Assembly (NCBI GenBank): GCA_028285405.1
Contig: JANQPH010000026.1
Span: forward strand, 1 to 64,000
Length of the DNA: 64,000 bases
Source of the DNA: Thermoleophilia bacterium
GTDB taxonomy: Bacteria; Actinomycetota; Thermoleophilia; Miltoncostaeales; Miltoncostaeaceae
Reading direction: 5' to 3'
The position numbers were made by a program, and so were the translations under genes. The notes beneath the pieces were generated by a model. That model was not told the origin of the DNA, made no database searches, and worked only from the letters and a program-made list of their open reading frames with translations. This document shows, one piece after another, positions 2 to 41,240 of the stretch. Positions within the stretch are counted from its first letter, which is position 1. Each line of letters starts with the position of its first letter.

Positions 2-1978
2 ATCTCGATGGTGCCGCCGCTGCAGTTCGACTACTGGCAGTGGGTCACCCTCGCCCTCGCGACGCCCGTCGTGCTGTGGGCCGGATGGCCGTTCCACGCG
101 GCCGCCGGGCGAGCCCTGCGCCACGGGACCGCCTCGATGGACACCCTCGTGTCGATCGGCACCCTGGCCGCCTGGGCGTGGTCCATCGCGGTGATGCTCT
201 TCACCAGCGCGGGCGATCCGGGCATGCGGATGTCGTTCGAGATCATCCCCGCCCGCGGCGAGGGACTGCACCACGTCTACTTCGAGGTCAGCGCCGTCGT
301 CGTCACCTTCCTCCTGCTCGGGCGCTACCTGGAGGCGCGCGCCAAGCGCAACGCGGGCGCGGCCCTCGCGGCGCTGCTGGCGCTCGGCGCCAAGGAGGCG
401 AGCGTGCTCGGGCCCGATGGTCGTGAGCACCGGGTCCCGATCGACGAGCTCACCACCGGGCAGCGCTTCGTGGTCCGCCCCGGCGAGAAGGTGGCGACCG
501 ACGGGGTCGTCGAGGAAGGTGCCTCCGCGCTGGACGAGTCGCTGCTCACCGGCGAGTCGATGCCCGTCGAGAAGGCTCCGGGCGACGAGGTCATCGGCGC
601 CACGGTCAACATGGGTGGACGCGTGGTCGTGCGAGCGACGAGCGTCGGGGCCGACACCGCGCTGGCGCAGATCGGACGGCTCGTCTCGGACGCCCAGTCG
701 GGCAAGGCGCCGGTGCAGCGCCTTGCCGATCGGGTGTCGGCGGTGTTCGTGCCGGTGGTGCTCCTCATCGCCGCCGCCACGCTGGGCTTCTGGCTCGGGA
801 CCGGCGAGTCGGCGGCGTTCGCGGTCACGGCGACCGTGGCGGTGCTCATCATCGCCTGCCCCTGCGCGCTCGGGCTCGCCACACCCACCGCGCTCATGGT
901 GGGCACCGGACGTGGGGCGCAGCTCGGCCTGCTCATCAAGGGCCCAGAGGTGCTCGAGTCGACCCGATCCGTCGACACGATCCTGCTGGACAAGACCGGG
1001 ACGGTGACGACCGGACAGATGCGCCTCGTCACGATGGCCGTCGCGGACGGCGTCAGCGAGGACGAGGCGTTCCGGCTCGTCGGCAGCCTCGAGGACTCCT
1101 CCGAGCATCCGATCGCGCGGGCGATCGCGGGCGCGGCGCGGGATCGGCTCGGCGAGCTGCCGCCACCCGAGTCATTCCAGAACCGCGAGGGCCTCGGGGT
1201 CGAGGGCGTCGTCGACGGGCACGGGGTGATCGTCGGCCGCCCGGCGCTCTTGGCCGACTGGGGCGTGCACCTCCCGGAGGCGCTGGATCGGGTTCGCCAG
1301 GACGCCGAGGGTCGGGGTCAGACTGCCATCGCGGCCAGCTGGGACGGCAAGCCGGCCGCGGTCTTCGTCGTCGCCGACACCCCGAAGGCCAGCTCCGTCG
1401 AGGCGGTGGGGCGCCTGCGCGGACTGGGGCTGCGGCCGGTGCTGCTCACGGGCGACAACCGCACGACCGCCGACGCCGTCGCCGCGCAGGTCGGGATCGA
1501 CGAGGTGATCGCGGAGGTCCTCCCGGCCGACAAGGCACGGGTCGTGGCCGAGCTCCAACAGGAGGGGCGCGTCGTCGCGATGGTGGGCGACGGCGTGAAC
1601 GACGCGCCGGCGCTCGCCCAGGCGGACCTCGGTCTCGCCATCGGCACGGGAACCGACGTGGCCATCGAGGCGTCGGACCTGACGCTCGTCTCGGGCGATC
1701 TCAACGCGGCGCCCGATGCGATCCGCCTCTCGCGCAGGACGCTCACCATCATCCGCGAGAACCTGTTCTGGGCGTTCGCCTACAACGTGGTGCTGATCCC
1801 CGCCGCGGCCGTCGGACTCCTGAACCCGCTGCTGGCGGGAGCGGCCATGGCGTTCTCGAGCGTCTTCGTCGTCACCAACTCGTTGCGCCTGCGCAGGTTC
1901 CGGCGCGAGCCCAGCCAGGGGCTGGATCCGCAATCGCTTCCCGGAGGCGAGAAGGGCGCTCGCGTCGCCGCCACCTGA
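2..1978 (+). CDS. copA: Heavy-metal (copper-type) P1B ATPase, 5' partial
   Basis: ATP-driven metal-ion exporter of the cytoplasmic membrane; the frame is already open at the window edge, so the N-terminal metal-binding domain and first helices lie outside. Counting from the first ATG (position 8), the TGES actuator motif (LLTGES) is near residue 180, the CPC metal site in a transmembrane helix near 284, the phosphorylated Asp of DKTGT near 328, the SSEHP motif of P1B ATPases near 365, and the GDGVNDAP hinge near 525, followed by two C-terminal helices. The CPC motif fits Cu(I)/Ag(I) pumps (CopA group) rather than Zn/Cd pumps, which also have CPC but a different last helix, so the metal is likely but not certain. 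No regulator is visible next to it within the window. Confidence 0.9.
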
Positions 1979-4730: not shown

Positions 4731-5096
4731 TCACCGCGCGGACGTCTGCTCGGCGGTCGATCCGCTCACGGCGGCGAGCGCACGGTCGAGCTGCTCGATG
4801 ACGCCGCCGCACACCGCGTCACAGATGGCGAGGACGGACGGATCGACGATCCGGTAGCGAACGTAGTTTCCGTCCTTTCGGCGAGCGACGATCCCCTCCG
4901 CGTGGAGCAGGCCGAGGTGGCGGGAGACGTTCTGCTGAGTCGTCCCGGCGGCGGCGGTCAGCTCGCCGACGGTCGCCTCGCCGTCTCGGAGCGTGTTGAG
5001 CAGCCGGATCCGCGTGGGATCGCCGATGGCCGACAGGCGGCGAGCGATGCGCTCGACCATCTCGTCCGACAGGGCTGGCTGATCGCTCCGTGCCAT
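4731..5096 (-). CDS. ArsR-family transcriptional regulator
   Basis: 121-residue winged-helix repressor: DPTRIRLLNTL, then the recognition helix region TTQQNVSRHLGLL and the beta-wing RRKDGNYVRYRI. There is no CxC site in the recognition helix, but a CDAVC pair lies in the C-terminal helix, where some ArsR members bind metal or form a redox dithiol. A TTG start seven codons upstream is possible; ATG at 5096 is preferred because a -10-like GATATA lies six bases before it, suggesting a leaderless mRNA. Heads the ArsR-MMPL-AhpD operon and probably regulates it. The inducer is unknown. Confidence 0.85.
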   Translation of the reverse strand: MARSDQPALSDEMVERIARRLSAIGDPTRIRLLNTLRDGEATVGELTAAAGTTQQNVSRHLGLLHAEGIVARRKDGNYVRYRIVDPSVLAICDAVCGGVIEQLDRALAAVSGSTAEQTSAR

Positions 5097-5102
5097 GGGC
5101 GG

Positions 5103-5138
5103 TATATCAGCACACAAGTAAGTAGTTGTCTAGTTGTT
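5103..5138 (-). promoter_or_regulatory. Promoter and candidate operator of the ArsR-MMPL operon
   Basis: Reading on the minus strand, TAGACA (5133-5128) and an overlapping TGATAT/GATATA (5109-5103) are separated by 18-19 bases and end six bases before the ArsR ATG. A tandem 8-mer (TAGTTGTC at 5123-5130, TAGTTGTT at 5131-5138 on the plus strand) overlaps the -35 element and is a plausible regulator site. The assignment is by pattern only. Confidence 0.45.
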
Positions 5139-5238: not shown

Positions 5239-6588
5239 ATGCGACTTGGAGTCGTCCCGGCGCTCGCGGTAGGCGCGCTCCTTGTTGGTGGAGCAAGCGC
5301 AACCGGAGCCATCTCGGGTGAGGCGCGCCTGAAGGGAGAGCTCCGAAGCGCAGACCGCTCGGGGAACCAAACGCTCGTCGCCGGACGCGCTGGCCCCAAC
5401 CATGTCGCGGTCTGGTCGCACAGGGCACGAGGCCCGTGGCGCCAGCTGGTGCGGGTGCCCGCACGCAAGGCTCAGGCGATCACGGTGCTCGGGTCGCAAT
5501 CGGGTGCGGCACTGGTTGCATGGGAGGATCGGCAGTCGGGCGGCCGTCGGCACACCCGAGTGATGGAACGCAGCAATGCGACCTCGCCGTTTCGCGCCCC
5601 GGTCACGCTGTCGTCCGGCACGGGCTATGGCCACGCACCCCGAGCAGCAGCATCCGCGTCCGGACGCCAGGTCGTGGCGTGGCGAGGGGCACGCGGAGAG
5701 AGCGGAACCGTCTACGCGGTCGAGCGCGCGGCGGGTGGCGCCTGGACTCCGCCACGGGACATCGCGGGGCCCAGGGATCCGGGGCATCTGGACGGTCTCC
5801 GTGTGACCGACTCGGGTGCAGCCGCGTGGTGGAGCGAACGGTTCGGACCGGCCGAGCTCGACCTCGCGACGATCTTCTCGTCGAGCGGTGAGCCCGGGGC
5901 GTGGTCCGAACCGAGAGAGCTGGCCCGCTCGAGCGAGTCGGGTCCAGGCCCACCTCGGGTGGTGTTTCGAGCCGAGCTCGGCGTCGATGGCCGTGGGGTG
6001 CCCGCCGCGGTCTGGTCGGAACTGCGAGACAGCGCCAGAGGTGTCGTCGACTGCCTGCGTGCCTCCGCCTCGACCGGTCAAGCCCCCGTCGAGATCCTCT
6101 GCACACGTGACATCTCGATCACCGGCACCTGGCTGGCAACGCCCTCGAGCCGGGGCGGGTCAGTCCTGGCCCTCGTCGACGAGCGGGGACGAGTGGAGTT
6201 GCATCGGATTGCGCCGAACGCAGCCTCGGCGGCGCGGCTGGCGGCATTCCGCATCAAGAGATGGTCATTCTGGGAGCTGGCCGCGCTCGAAGAACGCCCG
6301 AATGGCAACATCCGCCTCATCCTGACGTCCGACCCGACGCTCAGCGGGCGCCCGGGACTCGATCTCATCACCGTCGAGACCACAGCTGACGGTCAGGTGC
6401 TGATGAGGCGCCGAGAGAGCCGCCGGAAGACCGGCGAGCTCCCGCTGGTCCTGCCGTTCGAGACTGCCCTGGGCGGCGTCTACCTGCCGGTGGACGACTT
6501 GGGCGACATCGTCGAGGCCGTTCGCACCAGTCGCTTCAGGCCTCCACTGTTCCAGCGGGTTGGCGTGCTGCTCCCAGCCCGCCAGTAG
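5239..6588 (+). CDS. Exported protein of unknown function
   Basis: 449-residue protein starting at ATG 5239 with an immediate signal peptide (MRLGVVPALAVGALLVGGA); the open frame runs back to 5134, but that extension has no membrane-targeting logic. The mature part consists of repeated short beta-rich segments with Ala-Trp and Val-Trp patches (VAVWSH, LVAWED, VVAWRG, AAWWSE), which is the look of a beta-propeller or similar repeat fold. No catalytic motif recognised. It is divergent from the ArsR operon and convergent with the zinc-binding lipoprotein gene. Many long secreted proteins of this kind occur in the window. Confidence 0.6.
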   Translation: MRLGVVPALAVGALLVGGASATGAISGEARLKGELRSADRSGNQTLVAGRAGPNHVAVWSHRARGPWRQLVRVPARKAQAITVLGSQSGAALVAWEDRQSGGRRHTRVMERSNATSPFRAPVTLSSGTGYGHAPRAAASASGRQVVAWRGARGESGTVYAVERAAGGAWTPPRDIAGPRDPGHLDGLRVTDSGAAAWWSERFGPAELDLATIFSSSGEPGAWSEPRELARSSESGPGPPRVVFRAELGVDGRGVPAAVWSELRDSARGVVDCLRASASTGQAPVEILCTRDISITGTWLATPSSRGGSVLALVDERGRVELHRIAPNAASAARLAAFRIKRWSFWELAALEERPNGNIRLILTSDPTLSGRPGLDLITVETTADGQVLMRRRESRRKTGELPLVLPFETALGGVYLPVDDLGDIVEAVRTSRFRPPLFQRVGVLLPARQ

Positions 6589-6679
6589 CGGCCACCGACC
6601 CCTGGCGCATCGCTCGGGACGATCCGCGCCGAGCGCGCGCCAGGACCGAGTGGACCTCCGTTGACCGAAGGGCGGCGCC

Positions 6680-7816
6680 TCAGGAAGCCTCGCCGAGATG
6701 GGTGGCGATGATCTGGGCGTTGCTCGTCAGCATGCCGAGGTAGGTGTCGGCGTCCGAGCCCTCCGCCCCGAGGGCACCCGTCGAGAGCTCGGGGGCCACC
6801 TCGACCCCCGCCTCCCGGGCAATGGTCTCGAGCGTCTCGGGGGTCACGATGTTCTCGGGAAAGATCGCCGGCACACCCGACTCCTTCACCTGCTGGACCG
6901 CGGCTGCGACCTCGGCGGCGGACGGATCCGCGCCCTCGGTCGAGAGGGAGTTCAGCGCCGCGCCGAGCACCTCGAAGTCGTGCTCCTGCGCGAAGTAGCC
7001 GAACGCGTCGTGGTTGGTGAACAGCACGCGCTGACCGGCAGGAACCACGGCCAGCGTCTCACTGACCTGGTCACCCGCGGACTCGATCTCGGCGACGTAG
7101 GCGGCGGCGCGCTCCTGGTAGGCGTCGGCGTTCTCGGGGTCGACCGCGGCGAGGGTGTCGGCGACGTTCTGGGCCATCACGACGCCGTTCGCGGCCGTGA
7201 GCCAGACGTGCGGGTCCGGGCCCTCGTGCGAGTGGTCGTGTCCGGCCTCGCCCTCGCCCTCGTGGGCGTCGCCGTGGTCCTCGTGCTTCTCCTCGTCGCT
7301 GTGCTTCTCCTCGTCACCGTGATCGTGCTCGTCACCGTGATCGTGGTCGTGGTCGTCCTCGCCCTCGGAGTGTCCGTCCTCCTCGCCGCTGGCGTGTGCC
7401 TCGTCCTCGCCGTGCGCGTGGCCGTCCTCCTCCGAGAACTCGATCAGCTCCACTCCGTCCGAGAGCTCGCTGACTCCCGCTTCGGTACCCGAGGCGTCGA
7501 CCAGGTCCTCGAGCCAGCTCTCGAAGCCGAGCCCGATCGAGAACACCGCCTGGGCCTCGGTGATCGCCTCGGCGTCCCCGGGCTCGGGCTCGAAGGTGTG
7601 CGCGTCGGAGTCCCGGCCGACGAGGGTCTGCACGTCGACGTCCTCGCCGCCGACGTTCTCAACGATGTCGGCGACGACCGTCGTCGTCGCGACTACGGGA
7701 ACAGCGCTGTCGGTCCCCGCCTCGTCGTCGTCGCCGCCACAGGCGGCGGCGCCAAGGGCAAGCGCGCCGGCGGCGAGCGCGAGCGCGGGGAACTGGACCG
7801 ATCTTCTCCGAATCAC
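6680..7816 (-). CDS. znuA: Zinc/manganese ABC transporter substrate-binding lipoprotein (ZnuA-like)
   Basis: 378-residue solute-binding protein that captures Zn2+ outside the membrane for an ABC importer (cluster A-1, TroA/ZnuA family). It has an N-terminal signal with a lipobox-like LGAAAC, the conserved DAHTFEP region, an exceptionally long Asp/Glu/His-rich loop (about residues 125-205) typical of zinc binders, then DPHVWL and the FTNHDAFGYFA segment with metal-ligand His. GTG at 7816 is chosen because GAGGAG sits seven bases upstream; 15 extra upstream codons are open. It follows the Zur-box-controlled COG0523 gene by 77 bases with a strong hairpin between. No cognate permease or ATPase gene lies in the window, so the importer must be completed elsewhere. 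Confidence 0.9.
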   Translation of the reverse strand: MIRRRSVQFPALALAAGALALGAAACGGDDDEAGTDSAVPVVATTTVVADIVENVGGEDVDVQTLVGRDSDAHTFEPEPGDAEAITEAQAVFSIGLGFESWLEDLVDASGTEAGVSELSDGVELIEFSEEDGHAHGEDEAHASGEEDGHSEGEDDHDHDHGDEHDHGDEEKHSDEEKHEDHGDAHEGEGEAGHDHSHEGPDPHVWLTAANGVVMAQNVADTLAAVDPENADAYQERAAAYVAEIESAGDQVSETLAVVPAGQRVLFTNHDAFGYFAQEHDFEVLGAALNSLSTEGADPSAAEVAAAVQQVKESGVPAIFPENIVTPETLETIAREAGVEVAPELSTGALGAEGSDADTYLGMLTSNAQIIATHLGEAS

Positions 7817-7859
7817 AAGAGGCTCCTCGAGTGGCGGGGTGTGTGAGCGAACGGGCCGC

Positions 7860-7886
7860 ACCCGGCCCGGCGACGCCGGGCCGGGT
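7860..7886 (-). terminator. Strong GC hairpin between COG0523 and znuA genes
   Basis: Perfect inverted repeat with 12-bp arms (ACCCGGCCCGGC / GCCGGGCCGGGT) and a three-base loop, located in the 77-base gap downstream of the COG0523 stop and 43 bases before the znuA GTG. There is no U-tract. It could be a partial terminator or processing stem that lowers or uncouples znuA expression from the upstream gene. Confidence 0.55.
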
Positions 7887-7893
7887 GGCGACC

Positions 7894-9090
<1,197 letters not shown>

Positions 9091-9113
9091 CGATCACCTC
9101 CGTTTCGAGTGTG

Positions 9114-9148
9114 GCCTAGATGAGAATAGTAATCATTCCTATCTAGGC
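9114..9148 (-). promoter_or_regulatory. Zur-like box 1, upstream of the COG0523-znuA unit
   Basis: The 15-mer TGAGAATAGTAATCA (9121-9135) fits the 7-1-7 pattern TGA-n-AAT-n-ATT-n-TCA known for actinobacterial Zur, with two core mismatches. It is embedded in a 35-bp inverted repeat whose outer arms GCCTAGAT (9114-9121) and ATCTAGGC (9141-9148) are perfect. It lies in the gap between the zur stop and the COG0523 start, so it should control the latter. Confidence 0.78.
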
Positions 9149-9194
9149 ACACCCGATCGGGTGTGGAGAGGTCAGCCCGAGGGCGCCGCCGGGA

Positions 9195-9659
9195 TCAGCG
9201 AGACGAGCGCGCGGCGGATCGTGTGCCCGTGCGCCGCCCCCGAAGGACGATCTCGTGTGAGCTCAACTCGAATCCCGCGCGTGCTGCGGCCGCCTCGACC
9301 GCGCGCTCGAGCTCGGGGTCGCTGAAGGGCGCCACCTCGCCGGTGGCATCGTCGATGAAATGGTGGTGGTGGGATCCCGGCGCGGCGATCTCGAAGCGGG
9401 CGATCCCGCTCTCGTCGACGAGTCGGCGGACGAGGCCGAGCGCCGTGAGTTCCTCGAGGATTCGATAGACGGAGGCCTGCCCCGCGCGTCCTCCCTGCTC
9501 GCGAAGACGCGCGACGATGTCGCTCGCGCCCAGGAGGCACTGGCCCTCACGGGCCAGGAACTCGATCACCTCAACCCGCGCCGCTCCCAGACGAAGGCCG
9601 GCGCCCGCCACTCGCTCCGTCGCGAGCGCGCGCCACGCATCCTGCTCCGCTGCGTCCAT
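9195..9659 (-). CDS. zur: Fur-family zinc uptake regulator Zur, without the cysteine zinc site
   Basis: 154-residue Fur-family repressor: N-terminal winged helix ([24 protein letters not shown]) and a C-terminal dimerisation domain with the regulatory SHHHHFID motif and a later FELSSHEI. Assignment as Zur rests on family similarity and on the surrounding zinc genes carrying matching boxes. The two CxxC pairs that hold the structural zinc of classical Fur/Zur proteins are absent; the only cysteine is in QCLL, so folding must use other ligands or none. No Zur-like box precedes the gene itself. It lies just upstream (in transcription order) of the COG0523-znuA unit but is separated from it by 104 bases containing a box. 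Confidence 0.82.
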
Positions 9660-9703
9660 GCGAAGAGCATCGCAGGGCGGTCGCGGCCCTGCGAGTCACA
9701 TGC

Positions 9704-10057
9704 TCAGGCGCGGACGTGCACCGCCCCGTGGTCGTCGCAGTGGGCGCCGTGCGGATGGTGCAGGTGCCCATCGACAAGGAAGTCGACGTGATCGCCGTGT
9801 GGTACCGGCTCGTGCCCACACCCGGGCCCGTGCTGATGGCCCTCGGGGTGGCCGGCGCACCGGTGCTCGGGGGTGCAGTCGTTCGGGTTGGCGCTCGAAA
9901 CGGCGATGACGTGCTCCTCGACGCCACCACTGTCGGGGTGGTGCAGGTGCCCGTCGTGCAGGTAGTCGACGTGGCCGTCGTGCTCGATCGCGACGTGACC
10001 ACAGGACGGCCCGTGAACATGGTCGTGCGGTGCGTGAAGTGTCTGTTCGTTGCTCAT
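9704..10057 (-). CDS. Histidine-rich duplicated protein, probable zinc buffer or chaperone
   Basis: 117-residue, cytosolic-looking protein with about 25 histidines and no signal peptide. It is built of two copies of one unit: HGPSCGHVAIEHDGHVDYL + DGHLHHP and HGPGCGHEPVPHGDHVDFL + DGHLHHP, about 60 residues apart. The density of His, Asp and paired Cys strongly suggests metal binding; zinc is inferred from its place between zur and other box-bearing genes and from a Zur-like box 47 bases before its ATG. A cytosolic zinc store released in starvation or a shuttle to the COG0523 GTPases are both possible. No enzymatic motif. Confidence 0.75.
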   Translation of the reverse strand: MSNEQTLHAPHDHVHGPSCGHVAIEHDGHVDYLHDGHLHHPDSGGVEEHVIAVSSANPNDCTPEHRCAGHPEGHQHGPGCGHEPVPHGDHVDFLVDGHLHHPHGAHCDDHGAVHVRA

Positions 10058-10103
10058 GCACCGAGAGTGCACGGGTGGGAGCGTCGACTCAAGACGCCAA
10101 GAA

Positions 10104-10118
10104 CGAGACCTATTCTCA
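10104..10118 (-). promoter_or_regulatory. Zur-like box 4, upstream of the histidine-rich gene
   Basis: On the minus strand the sequence is TGAGAATAGGTCTCG, sharing the first eight bases with box 1 and ending one base short of the TCA half-site. It is the weakest of the four sites and is accepted mainly because its position, about 50 bases from the start codon, matches the other boxes. Confidence 0.5.
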
Positions 10119-10202
10119 ACAGGACTGCCGCCCGCCGGCGCCGCGGTGGCGAGCGCCCGCGAGCCCGAACTCGTCCATCCGCCCCCCGTTCGTCCGCCCT
10201 GC

Positions 10203-10238
10203 TTGACATCGGACAGAACATGAGAATGATTCTCATCT
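10203..10238 (+). promoter_or_regulatory. Promoter with overlapping Zur-like box 2
   Basis: TTGACA (10203-10208) is followed after 16 bases by AATGAT (10225-10230). The perfect 7-1-7 palindrome TGAGAATGATTCTCA (10221-10235) covers the -10 element; it agrees with the actinobacterial Zur consensus at every fixed position. The GTG of the flavin oxidoreductase begins at 10239, so the mRNA is probably leaderless and a bound repressor would block the start site. Confidence 0.82.
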
Positions 10239-11492
10239 GTGTCCGCGACGGCGCAGAACCGACACGAGTGGCTCATCCTGGGATCGGGTATCCACGGCTG
10301 CCACCTCGCCCACCGCCTCATCGGAGCCGGTGAGGACCCAGCCGGGATCGCGCTGCTCGATCCGCACCCGCGCGCGCTCTGGGCCTGGGAGAAGCGCACC
10401 GACGCCGTCGGCATGCGCTATCTGAGATCCCCCGCGGTCCATCACATCGGCAGCGACCCCTACGAGCTTGGACGCCTTCGGCGAAGCAAGTCCGATCATC
10501 TCGGCGTCTACCAGCGCCCGTCCCTCGCCCTCTTCAATCGTCACGCGCGCGGAGTCGTCGAGACCGGCGGGATCGAGGCCCGCAGGATCACGGGCTGGGC
10601 ACGACGGATTGCGCCCGAGCGCGGCGGCTGGAGCGTCTCGAGCTCGGCCGGGGCGCTTCGTACGCGCCGGCTGGTGCTCGCCACCGGTCCTGCCGCGCCG
10701 AGCTGGCCGGAGTGGGCGCAGGCGGCGCGACGGTCGGGGGCGCCGATCCACCACATCCTCGAGCCCCGATCAGAGGTCGAGGCGCTCGGCGACGGCGGGA
10801 GCATCGTTGTCGTCGGCGCCGGGATGAGTGCCGCGCAGACCGCCTTCTCGCTCGCCGGACGAGACGGATTCGATGTCGTGCTCCTCGGACCGCCGCTCAG
10901 CCAGGCCCGCTTCGACAGCCATCCGATGTGGCTCGGGCCAACGCTCGTCGCCTCGCTCCGGCGAACACCCGACCTGTCCGAGCGGCGCCGGATGATCGAT
11001 GCCGGACGCTGCCCCGGAACCGTCACCGACGAGGTGGCCAGAGCCGTCGCGGGGGCGTGCGCCGAGGGCCGCCTGCGTCACGTGCACGGACGCGCGGTCG
11101 GTGCCGAGCCGACGCCCGGTGGGATCTCGGTCGAGACCGAGACCGGCGAATCGATCGACGCGTCGGCACTGCTCCTTGCCACCGGGTTCGCCCGCCGACC
11201 GCCGGGCGGTGGACTCCTCGCCCAGGCGGTCTCGGACCTGGGGCTTCCCGTCTCTCCCTGTGGGCGCCCCGTGGTCTCACCCGCCCTCGAGTGGGCACCG
11301 GGTCTTCACGTCACGGGTGGCCTGGCGGAGCTCGAGATCGGCGCGGCGGCACCCAACATCGCCGGCGCGATGCGTTGTGCGTGGGCGATCGTCAGCGGTG
11401 CCGGACCGGATCAGGCCGACGAGCTCACCCCGGCGCGCCAGTCGTCGCCAGCTCGCCCAGCTCCAAGTCCGGAGGCAGCTGGGGGCCGATGA
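10239..11492 (+). CDS. FAD/NAD(P)-binding monooxygenase-like oxidoreductase under Zur-like control
   Basis: 417-residue flavoprotein with two dinucleotide-binding sites: ILGSGIHG (about residues 13-20, FAD) and VVVGAGMSAAQ (about 189-199, NADPH), and the LATGF motif near 310, an arrangement seen in flavin-containing and lysine/ornithine N-monooxygenases. It lacks neighbouring siderophore synthetases. The GTG start sits three bases after a perfect Zur-like palindrome, so expression in zinc starvation is likely. Possible roles are modification of a zinc-binding metabolite or thiol oxidation; neither can be shown here. The last 68 bases overlap the 3' end of the convergent COG0523 gene. Confidence 0.75.
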   Translation: MSATAQNRHEWLILGSGIHGCHLAHRLIGAGEDPAGIALLDPHPRALWAWEKRTDAVGMRYLRSPAVHHIGSDPYELGRLRRSKSDHLGVYQRPSLALFNRHARGVVETGGIEARRITGWARRIAPERGGWSVSSSAGALRTRRLVLATGPAAPSWPEWAQAARRSGAPIHHILEPRSEVEALGDGGSIVVVGAGMSAAQTAFSLAGRDGFDVVLLGPPLSQARFDSHPMWLGPTLVASLRRTPDLSERRRMIDAGRCPGTVTDEVARAVAGACAEGRLRHVHGRAVGAEPTPGGISVETETGESIDASALLLATGFARRPPGGGLLAQAVSDLGLPVSPCGRPVVSPALEWAPGLHVTGGLAELEIGAAAPNIAGAMRCAWAIVSGAGPDQADELTPARQSSPARPAPSPEAAGGR

Positions 11493-12393
11493 GGATCGCG
11501 ACCGGTTCGAGGCGTTCGCCCCGGATCGGAGTGAGGCGCACGGCGTCGGCACCCTCGAGCCGCTCGAAGTAGCACCAGCCGCCGTCGCCCGCGAGTTGTG
11601 CGACCCCCTTCACTCGCACGGCCTCTGGCGGAAGGGCGTGCAGCCACGACTCGAGCGCCCCCCGCTCGACGAGCGGAGCGAGCGGGAACTCGGCGGCGCT
11701 GAAGTGGTGGCGACGAGGGTCGTGGTGGTGGTCAGCCGAAGCGCCGCCGAAGCGCCGTGGAGCGAGCTCGGGGGCATCGGCGATGCCCGCGACCGTCTCC
11801 GTGAGCGCCTCGACGCCGACCAGCCCGGCGCGCGGCGCCAGATCGGCAAGGGCCTCCTCGACGTCGCGCCGCCGTGTGGCATCGACCTCCTCCGCACGAG
11901 TGAGGACGATGTGGGTCGCCGTCTGCACCTGCTCGGCCTCGAGCTCGTTCTGCCAGCCGCGGCGCTGCCACCGTGAGACGTCGATCACCGAGACCTGGAC
12001 CGGCAGCGTGTAGCGCGCCGCCGCACGATCGGCTGCGAGGACCTCGATCAGCTCGGCGGGGTCCGCCGTGCCGTTCGCCTCGACGAGCATGACCGACCGC
12101 TCGGGAAGGGCCGCGCCCTCGAGCGCCGCGGTCAGCTCGGCCCGCGAGGCACAGCAGACGCAGGTGCCGCCGATTGGGACCACCTGCTCCGCCAGGCTCG
12201 GAATCGTCGCCGCGTCGACGCGGGCGTTCAGGTAGTCGTTGAGGATGACCGAGGGGGCGATGCCGCGTGCGTGGAGGCCCCGAACCATCGCTCGCACGAC
12301 GGTGGTCTTGCCGGCGCCGAGGACGCCCGTGATCAGCACGAGCGGGGTCAGCACGGGACCGGCCTCGGAAGGGGTGCCATCGGCGCGGGTCAC
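11425..12393 (-). CDS. Second COG0523 (CobW-type) GTPase, divergent subgroup
   Basis: 322-residue G3E GTPase, only distantly like its neighbour at 7894-9090. It has Walker A GVLGAGKTT (residues 23-31), the metal motif as GTCVCC (Cys78, Cys80, Cys81), a short His-rich patch (ADHHHDPRRHHF) before the C-terminal domain, and LTRAEEV where NKxD is expected, so nucleotide specificity may be altered. GTG at 12393 is chosen over the longer open frame because a TATCAT -10 element lies six bases before it and a Zur-like box begins eight bases upstream. Probable zinc chaperone used when zinc is low. Confidence 0.83.
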   Translation of the reverse strand: MTRADGTPSEAGPVLTPLVLITGVLGAGKTTVVRAMVRGLHARGIAPSVILNDYLNARVDAATIPSLAEQVVPIGGTCVCCASRAELTAALEGAALPERSVMLVEANGTADPAELIEVLAADRAAARYTLPVQVSVIDVSRWQRRGWQNELEAEQVQTATHIVLTRAEEVDATRRRDVEEALADLAPRAGLVGVEALTETVAGIADAPELAPRRFGGASADHHHDPRRHHFSAAEFPLAPLVERGALESWLHALPPEAVRVKGVAQLAGDGGWCYFERLEGADAVRLTPIRGERLEPVAILIGPQLPPDLELGELATTGAPG

Positions 12394-12400
12394 GCCTAGA

Positions 12401-12415
12401 TGATAATCGCTCTCA
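12401..12415 (-). promoter_or_regulatory. Zur-like box 3, covering the promoter of the second COG0523 gene
   Basis: TGATAATCGCTCTCA fits TGA-n-AAT-n-n-n-T-n-TCA and overlaps a GATAAT/ATTATC inverted repeat (12402-12407 and 12415-12420). The preceding bases GCCTAGA are the same as at box 1. The candidate -10 on the minus strand, TATCAT, is inside the box, and six bases separate it from the GTG, again indicating a leaderless transcript. Confidence 0.75.
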
Positions 12416-12495
12416 TTATCGGCCCAGGGCGGTTCACCGCATGGGCGGCAACCGTCGGGTCGAGCCCGACCGCGCAACCAGGTACGCCGACCCAG

Positions 12496-13518
12496 CTAGT
12501 CGATGCCGGCTCGGGTTCGCACGGGAATCCCCCGCTCGCGCGCGAGCGCATCGGCCACCCCACGCCGTGTCGCCTCGGCCACCCGACTCGGCTCGATCCC
12601 CGCGTCGATGAGCCGCTGAGCGAGGTGCTCCTCGCGTGCCTGGCGAAAGAACAGCACCGCGATCGCCCCGAACGCGAGCAGGCAGTGGAGCACCATCATC
12701 ACCGTGCCCGCGTGCCCCTGGTCCTCCAGGGGAGACAACCCCCACGCGACCGCCGCTTCGGCGTGTGAGCGGTAGAAGGCGGTCCCCGAGAACCAGTAGA
12801 CGTTGGCGATGATCAGGCCCACCGTCCAGACGCCGCTCATGTAGAGGCCCTTGGCGGCCGTGCCGAACCACGCGGGAGCCGGGAGCGGCTCGATGATCGG
12901 CGCCCACATGACCAGGCCGAGCGCGAGGAACGACACCTGCTGGAGCACCCACAGCGGACTGCTCATCAGCACCGCGTGGTGGACAGCCGGAAGCAACCAC
13001 ACCACGGTGCCGATGACCCACAGCGAGAACGCGAGCACCGGGTGCGCGAGCAGGCCGAGGCGCCGCCGTGTCGTCGCGGCCAGGCCGCGGATGCTCGTCG
13101 CGGGGACACCGAGCAGCAGCAAGAGCGGTGCGACCGCACCGATCAGCGTGTGCTGAAGCATGTGCGCCGAGAGCAGCCCCTGCTGGGCGATGCCGCCGAG
13201 CGGGGAGACGACGGCGATCAGGATGGCGGCGAGGCCCGCGAGGAAACTCGCCTGCCGAGTACCCGAGACCCCGCCACTCCGGCGAGCCCAGACCACGTAG
13301 AGGGCGCCGAGAACGATCACCCCGGCGACCTCGACCGGTGGAATCGCCCAGAGCGCGGCCAGATCCGTGCTCGAGTCGGCCGCGGGCCCCGAATGTCCGA
13401 GGTGGTACGCGCCGGAGCTCGGACCGAGCGCCGCCAGGAACACGGCAAGTGCGAGGAAGCTCGCCCCGGCGAGCAGCGCCAGCGGCCTCAGGCCGCCATC
13501 CCAGCGGACAGCGACCAC
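12496..13518 (-). CDS. ctaG: Cytochrome c oxidase assembly factor CtaG (caa3 type)
   Basis: 340-residue polytopic membrane protein of the caa3_CtaG family (not the Cox11-type CtaG): about seven to nine helices, with SAHMLQHTLIG, LPAVHHAVL and MMVLHCLLAFG carrying the conserved membrane histidines. Family members are needed for copper-centre assembly or copper supply to caa3-type oxidase. It overlaps the previous gene by 31 bases and is the last of a five-gene minus-strand operon. Confidence 0.85.
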   Translation of the reverse strand: MVAVRWDGGLRPLALLAGASFLALAVFLAALGPSSGAYHLGHSGPAADSSTDLAALWAIPPVEVAGVIVLGALYVVWARRSGGVSGTRQASFLAGLAAILIAVVSPLGGIAQQGLLSAHMLQHTLIGAVAPLLLLLGVPATSIRGLAATTRRRLGLLAHPVLAFSLWVIGTVVWLLPAVHHAVLMSSPLWVLQQVSFLALGLVMWAPIIEPLPAPAWFGTAAKGLYMSGVWTVGLIIANVYWFSGTAFYRSHAEAAVAWGLSPLEDQGHAGTVMMVLHCLLAFGAIAVLFFRQAREEHLAQRLIDAGIEPSRVAEATRRGVADALARERGIPVRTRAGID

Positions 13519-28259: not shown

Positions 28260-28364
28260 GCTGGATCCGCTCCGGTCGAGACCGAAGAGAGGGGCATACG
28301 CCACCGCTTCGGAACACCTGATAAGCGTTCTCATCAGCCTATGAGTGCCCCAGGAACACCATGC

Positions 28365-38527: not shown

Positions 38528-41240
<2,713 letters not shown>

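Follow-up and report, generated by a model that had tools for sequence, protein, structure and literature searches.

Within 3.3 kb (positions 9,114 to 12,415) of a contig from a Thermoleophilia bacterium (assembly GCA_028285405.1, contig JANQPH010000026.1, of which the first 64,000 nucleotides were analysed and are hereafter called the window), four similar short sequences lie in front of genes with a likely role in zinc supply. The question raised by this locus is whether they are operators of one zinc-responsive repressor of the Zur type. A preliminary description, made from the DNA letters alone, had proposed that they are, with a common 15-bp pattern placed before a COG0523-znuA unit, a flavin oxidoreductase gene, a second COG0523 gene and a gene for a histidine-rich (His-rich) protein. 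Our analysis makes it very probable that a Zur-type repressor recognises these sites as its operators; it would switch these four units together with znuCB, a second znuA and an operon on C53. The four 15-mers were all confirmed in the sequence where they had been reported:

Site 1: box TGAGAATAGTAATCA at 9121-9135, in a putative 21-bp double operator TGAGAATAGTAATCATTCCTA at 9121-9141; upstream of zigA(-znuA).
Site 2: TGAGAATGATTCTCA at 10221-10235, a perfect 7-1-7 palindrome over the -10 element of the predicted flavoenzyme promoter.
Site 3: box TGATAATCGCTCTCA at 12401-12415, in a putative 21-bp double operator TGATAATCGCTCTCATTATCG at 12401-12421; upstream of the second COG0523 gene, 7 nt from its start.
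Site 4: box TGAGAATAGGTCTCG at 10104-10118, minus strand, with a candidate 21-bp form TGAGAATAGGTCTCGTTCTTG at 10098-10118; before the His-rich and Fur-family genes.

The shared pattern TGAKAATNNN[T/A]NTCA is matched exactly by three of the sites, but site 4 departs from it at the last base. A loose form, TGAKAATNNNNNTCA, has exact matches in the window solely at 9121, 10221 and 12401, and the palindrome TGAKAATNATTMTCA is found with up to three mismatches at 5 places in the window against 0.40 expected from shuffles, site 2 having no mismatch and site 4 having three. We scored the window with an independent 21-column matrix, trained on 14 boxes that precede znuABC or zur-type genes and come from other genomes of the class only. 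Sites 2, 3 and 1 take the first three ranks (35.6, 27.6 and 26.0, respectively) and site 4 the fifth (19.4). The overlapping second half of the site 1 double box, at 9127, reaches 15.9, and the remaining places in the window score 6.4 or less, that is, 13 bits under site 4; for a score of 13, a Markov model would yield 0.23 matches per 64 kb. Rank 4 belongs to TGATAAGCGTTCTCA at 28319-28333, which outscores site 4 (21.4) and lies in the gap between two convergent genes, at their 3' ends, with no credible gene start at this box. In the whole genome, the box with up to three mismatches occurs at 23 places, against 2 for a reversed control.

The likeness to the actinobacterial 7-1-7 palindrome, also put forward in the preliminary description, is exact at site 2, but the other sites are described better by a longer form. 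Sites 1 and 3, and more weakly site 4, are better read as two overlapping 7-1-7 boxes forming a putative 21-bp double operator. The pattern TGAKAAT-N7-ATTMTCA has 6 matches with up to three mismatches in the window, against 0.67 expected; site 1 shows two mismatches, site 3 one, and site 4, which is probably a 21-bp site, three. The double-operator reading rests on this longer pattern, since the half-site pattern alone (5-9-5, GAKAA-N9-TTMTC) shows no enrichment in the window (25 matches against 22.9 expected). Binding of two dimers has been described for the Zur of E. coli (review PMC6103462).

An operator lying over a promoter, the position expected of a repressor, is clear at site 2 only. 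Here the promoter TTGACA-16-AATGAT (10203-10230, plus strand) is the sole promoter-like site within 6500-12700, where 0.1 would be expected, and the box overlaps its -10 element. Since the GTG start codon at 10239 begins 8 nt past the -10, the sequence suggests that the flavoenzyme transcript is leaderless, with a predicted RNA start at or near this codon. For sites 1, 3 and 4 we infer the overlap with a promoter from their distance to the start codons.

The box is also found in relatives of this bacterium. In 101 related genomes, it gave 74 matches with at most one mismatch, against 3 for the reversed control. Thirty box loci were taken automatically, 9 of them from genomes of family f6 and 21 from others. 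Nineteen of these 21 (18 without this genome) adjoin znuABC, zigA, the His-rich gene or the flavoenzyme gene, and the other two end at contig ends; all 18 informative relatives outside f6 are zinc-linked. Most of 20 inspected box loci are linked to znuABC. Furthermore, each of the 5 zigA orthologues detected in the other relatives has the box upstream, and in G019 the flavoenzyme gene is divergent from zigA, one box being common to both. Because the loci outside f6 are zinc-linked and all the zigA orthologues carry it, we take the box to be the probable Zur operator for most of this class. Its recurrence before znuABC or zigA across relatives, and before znuCB and the second znuA in this genome, upholds the proposal of a Zur regulon. 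Among the loci used in this study, L022 and L034 appear to be one contig, as do L023 and L036, and neither pair counts as two independent observations.

The genes of the cluster, with their predicted products, are the following:

6680-7816, minus: znuA, substrate-binding lipoprotein for zinc uptake, with a loop rich in His, Asp and Glu (PF01297, E 3.6e-72).
7894-9090, minus: zigA, COG0523 zinc metallochaperone GTPase (NF038288 ZigA equivalog, 634 bits against a cut-off of 600).
9195-9659, minus: Fur-family gene of the Zur type (PF01475 over 120 residues, E 2.6e-23).
9704-10057, minus: His-rich gene for a 117-aa protein containing 26 His and 5 Cys in two repeats; immediately upstream of the Fur-family gene.
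10239-11492, plus: flavoenzyme gene with a GTG start (PF13454, E 7.8e-12).
11425-12393, minus: second COG0523 GTPase gene (PF02492, E 1.9e-28) with a CxCC motif.

The ZnuA, ZigA-type COG0523, second COG0523, flavoenzyme and His-rich proteins had been called correctly, and the Fur-family gene had been overlooked. On the minus strand the order is His-rich gene, Fur-family gene, zigA and znuA, with site 1 between the Fur-family gene and zigA. The flavoenzyme and second COG0523 genes are tail to tail, their 3' ends overlapping by 68 bp (11425-11492). The His-rich protein has no match in Pfam or NCBIfam, and its description as a store is a guess. On the other flank of the cluster we observed, by eye, a reading frame resembling P-type metal ATPases (8-1978, plus strand), and also a gene for an ArsR-family regulator (4731-5117, minus strand, PF01022); both may belong to metal export.

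Further boxes extend the candidate regulon in the rest of this genome. A strong box lies at C32:16765 before znuC-znuB, and an overlapping double box, also strong, at C40:29782/29788, 9 nt before the second znuA; both ZnuA proteins have His-rich loops. A perfect box at C53:13525 precedes an operon made up of a DsrE-related gene (NF040913 above cut-off), a small reading frame and a gene for a CzcO-like flavoprotein ending in CCGNECVC (L002, 7526-9678). No relative of this CzcO-like protein was found in 100 related genomes at E 1e-50. Relatives of the DsrE- and CzcO-like proteins were seen near the flavoenzyme gene in Chloroflexota, Gemmatimonadota and Myxococcota. A box at C40:14083 (L003, about 4084; matrix score 22.2), lying between a gene of the TetR type and a divergently oriented gene for a membrane protein, is possibly a further member of the regulon or a TetR operator. 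Zinc-free ribosomal paralogues are common in the Zur regulons of Actinobacteria, although they are not an essential criterion for one. A genome search for S14 and L33 found a single gene of each, so that this genome lacks zinc-free paralogues of at least these two targets, which are classic ones for Zur in Actinobacteria.

Relatives of the flavoenzyme were confirmed in 192 stretches of DNA from many phyla. Neighbours were counted in the best-scoring 80 loci, which are a non-random sample and include some short contigs. A close ZigA-type gene is present within about 5 kb in 31 of these loci, and a strong zinc-linked neighbour (ZigA, His-rich protein, zinc-free S14, ZnuA/B, C53-type protein or the second type of COG0523) in 41. 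When Fur or other COG0523 genes are included, 48 loci have a zinc-linked neighbour and 32 have none. The flavoenzyme thus represents a multi-phylum family adjoining zinc-starvation genes in about half of the sampled loci. The flavoenzyme gene of Mesobacillus maritimus is immediately preceded by a Zur box of the Bacillus type, TCGTAATCATTACGA, and has a ZigA-type gene next to it. A generic palindrome search before the flavoenzyme genes of distant phyla was convincing at few loci (this one and TGACAATCATTTTCA in Phycisphaerales). Among Actinomycetota, the gene was found in 13 of 396 sampled genomes, some of them with boxes or a ZigA, S14 or CzcO-like neighbour. Zinc-free type S14 genes were seen near it at L116, L117, L120 and L068 (other Actinomycetota and a Bacillus).

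The AlphaFold2 model of the flavoenzyme has a predicted local distance difference test score of 91, with low confidence in the last 20 residues or so. Its best Foldseek matches are SsDesB, DfoA and PvdA, with template modelling (TM) scores of 0.70-0.73 at 15-19% identity (SsDesB: E 4e-19, TM 0.73), and from this model the protein is predicted to adopt the two-domain fold of N-hydroxylating monooxygenases. By sequence it fits PF13454 best; Lys_Orn_oxgnase (PF13434) scores 22.0 against a cut-off of 21.3 over 70 residues only, and when the flavoenzyme profile was run against PDB sequences, the only matches were weak ones to other flavoproteins.

Three Fur-family proteins are encoded in this genome, one on C25 and two in the window (9195-9659 and 40929-41204). 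The last of these genes, on the minus strand, codes for intact CxxC motifs and lies outside the zinc cluster. Both structural CxxC motifs are present in the C25 protein, which among solved structures comes closest to M. tuberculosis FurB and S. coelicolor Zur and whose orthologues adjoin znuABC in relatives. The cluster protein (9195-9659) lacks both structural CxxC motifs, contains one Cys and has P. aeruginosa Fur as its best PDB match. It belongs to a clade of 12 proteins without the structural Cys4 site (Cys4-less; support 99/98) inside the Zur-type group of the class; in one of them, L164, a CxxC occurs at another place in the chain. Seven of the 12, counting the cluster protein and those of six other genomes, are paired with a His-rich gene. 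Several genomes hold both Cys4 and Cys4-less Zur-type proteins. In five others (G003, G014, G015, G016 and G045), the Cys4-less kind was the only one found in a search for close relatives at E 1e-15, and these genomes have boxes before znu or zigA genes. The sensor could be the canonical Cys4 Zur on C25 or the Cys4-less protein of the cluster, and we consider it marginally the likelier case that the latter also reads these boxes.

In the mechanism that we propose, the zinc-bound repressor would sit on boxes over the -10 element or start region of four promoters and keep four units off, namely zigA-znuA, the His-rich and Fur-family genes, the flavoenzyme gene and the second COG0523 gene. A drop in zinc would make the repressor leave and turn these units on, together with znuCB, the second znuA and the DsrE/CzcO-like operon. 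ZnuABC would then bring in zinc, ZigA and the second GTPase would supply client proteins with it, and the His-rich protein would bind zinc or pass it on, with the flavoenzyme acting as a zinc-starvation enzyme.

Several points weigh against this mechanism. The box at 28319, which has no gene, means that the motif alone yields some false matches, and the case is weak at site 4, the lowest scoring of the four, since other three-mismatch matches in the genome look like coding noise. The 9 box loci of family f6 show no zinc genes recognised by the queries used. Fe, Mn and Zn boxes of the Fur family are alike, and the metal is deduced here from the genes and not from the box. Finally, none of the three Fur-family proteins has the sensory Cys of M. 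tuberculosis FurB; before the HHHH motif, the cluster protein and its C25 paralogue have a Glu instead.

Among the alternatives, the one that survives best holds that the sites do not form one regulon, site 4 being the operator through which the Cys4-less protein regulates itself, with a specificity unlike that of sites 1-3. In relatives (L159, L160, L162 and L185), the His-rich gene is preceded at a similar distance by a palindrome GSGAA-N9-TTCSC (GCGAATGCGACTCATTCGC or GGGAA-N9-TTCCC) that is unlike the Zur box TGAGAATNATTCTCA, and because of this difference site 4 may serve a different reader, to which its place as the weakest matrix match adds. The sequences compared are few, however, and the TGAGAAT half-site is intact in site 4, whose matrix score lies far over background, so a separate specificity seems unlikely, if well worth keeping in mind. 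It is much less probable that the boxes belong to an Fe or Mn regulator (Fur or Mur) and that the ZnuA-like transport serves Mn or Fe. Boxes like TGATAATNATTATCA are common to Fur-family regulators, the closest structure to the cluster protein is that of a Fur, and ZnuA scores well, though below cut-off, with MntC models; against this stand the ZigA equivalog match, the His-rich loops of both ZnuA proteins, the linkage of box and znuABC in most inspected loci, and the alternative S14 and ZigA genes beside the flavoenzyme elsewhere. A chance likeness of AT-rich 15-mers within a GC-rich genome, for which several noise-like three-mismatch matches and the strong box at 28319 might speak, is highly improbable given the excess of palindromic matches over shuffles, the low Markov expectation and the conservation of the box before the same genes in other genomes, and the cross-genome matrix makes it barely tenable for sites 1-3.

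Taking the sites as Zur operators, we tentatively suggest, as an idea rather more likely to need revision than to stand, that the locus is a previously undescribed zinc-starvation module. Its core would be the flavoenzyme with its predicted N-hydroxylase fold, travelling with ZigA, to which Thermoleophilia would add a Cys4-less Zur-type regulator usable when zinc is scarce and a His-rich operon partner that perhaps loads or unloads it. Such a regulator would be comparable to zinc-free ribosomal paralogues in being made, and working, under zinc scarcity. It would bear on whether zinc sensing requires the structural Cys4 zinc, and on whether a regulator that costs little zinc is retained by bacteria for times of starvation. 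COG0523 GTPases under Zur control occur widely, and their clients are unclear; the flavoenzyme is a concrete candidate partner, which travels with ZigA, His-rich proteins and zinc-free S14 in Actinomycetota, Chloroflexota, Planctomycetota, Bacillota, Myxococcota and others. The regulator without the zinc site and the travelling flavoenzyme are the parts that merit bench work.

The closest known system is that of C. glutamicum, in which cg0794 (COG0523) and cg0795 (oxidoreductase), a divergent pair, are under Zur control, as both binding and the expression pattern of a zur mutant show, and in which leaderless transcripts have been mapped for several Zur targets (PMC2823685). Common to both regulons are a box over the promoter, leaderless starts (predicted here), znuABC, and COG0523 and oxidoreductase genes each under their own box; the experimental C. 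glutamicum list, like our result for S14 and L33, is without ribosomal paralogues (PMC2823685). The layout in G019 resembles that of cg0794/cg0795, the likeness drawn between cg0795 and the flavoenzyme being one of gene layout and oxidoreductase description. Because of cg0794/cg0795, a Zur regulon with a GTPase and an oxidoreductase is not new (PMC2823685), and the claim that the regulon is broader than usual is new in part only: the His-rich gene, the Cys4-less Fur-family gene, the second COG0523 gene and the DsrE/CzcO-like operon go beyond C. glutamicum. With the Zur regulons of S. coelicolor and M. tuberculosis, the present one shares a 7-1-7 box of the TGAAAATGATTTTCA kind, znuABC and a yciC-type COG0523 gene; those regulons include zinc-free ribosomal paralogues, whereas a single S14 and a single L33 are found here (PMC6103462). 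The box reads TGAGAAT here and TGAAAAT in these two species, and the sensory Cys of the FurB type is absent here.

The zigA gene of the cluster, above the ZigA equivalog cut-off, joins the known ZigA/YciC metallochaperones (PMC2770081). Other genomes with two Zur-linked COG0523 genes are on record, among them those of Pseudomonas putida and Bacillus anthracis, and the COG0523 survey, which covers sites in Bacilli, proteobacteria and cyanobacteria, does not name a flavoenzyme partner (PMC2770081). With SsDesB, DfoA and PvdA, the flavoenzyme has in common the predicted fold, which extends along almost the entire chain (TM about 0.7), and the motifs GxGxSAAQ and LATGF; unlike these N-hydroxylating monooxygenases, with which it shares so little sequence identity, it has a different family-wide conserved set of His and Cys residues and a gene cluster without siderophore synthesis genes. 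A limited search of the open literature found no account of the flavoenzyme as a multi-phylum zinc-linked family, nor of any Cys4-less Zur with a His-rich partner protein. The general idea of such a regulon is therefore known and its membership partly new, the new parts being the zinc-linked multi-phylum flavoenzyme family and the Cys4-less Zur-type clade that is usually paired with a His-rich gene.

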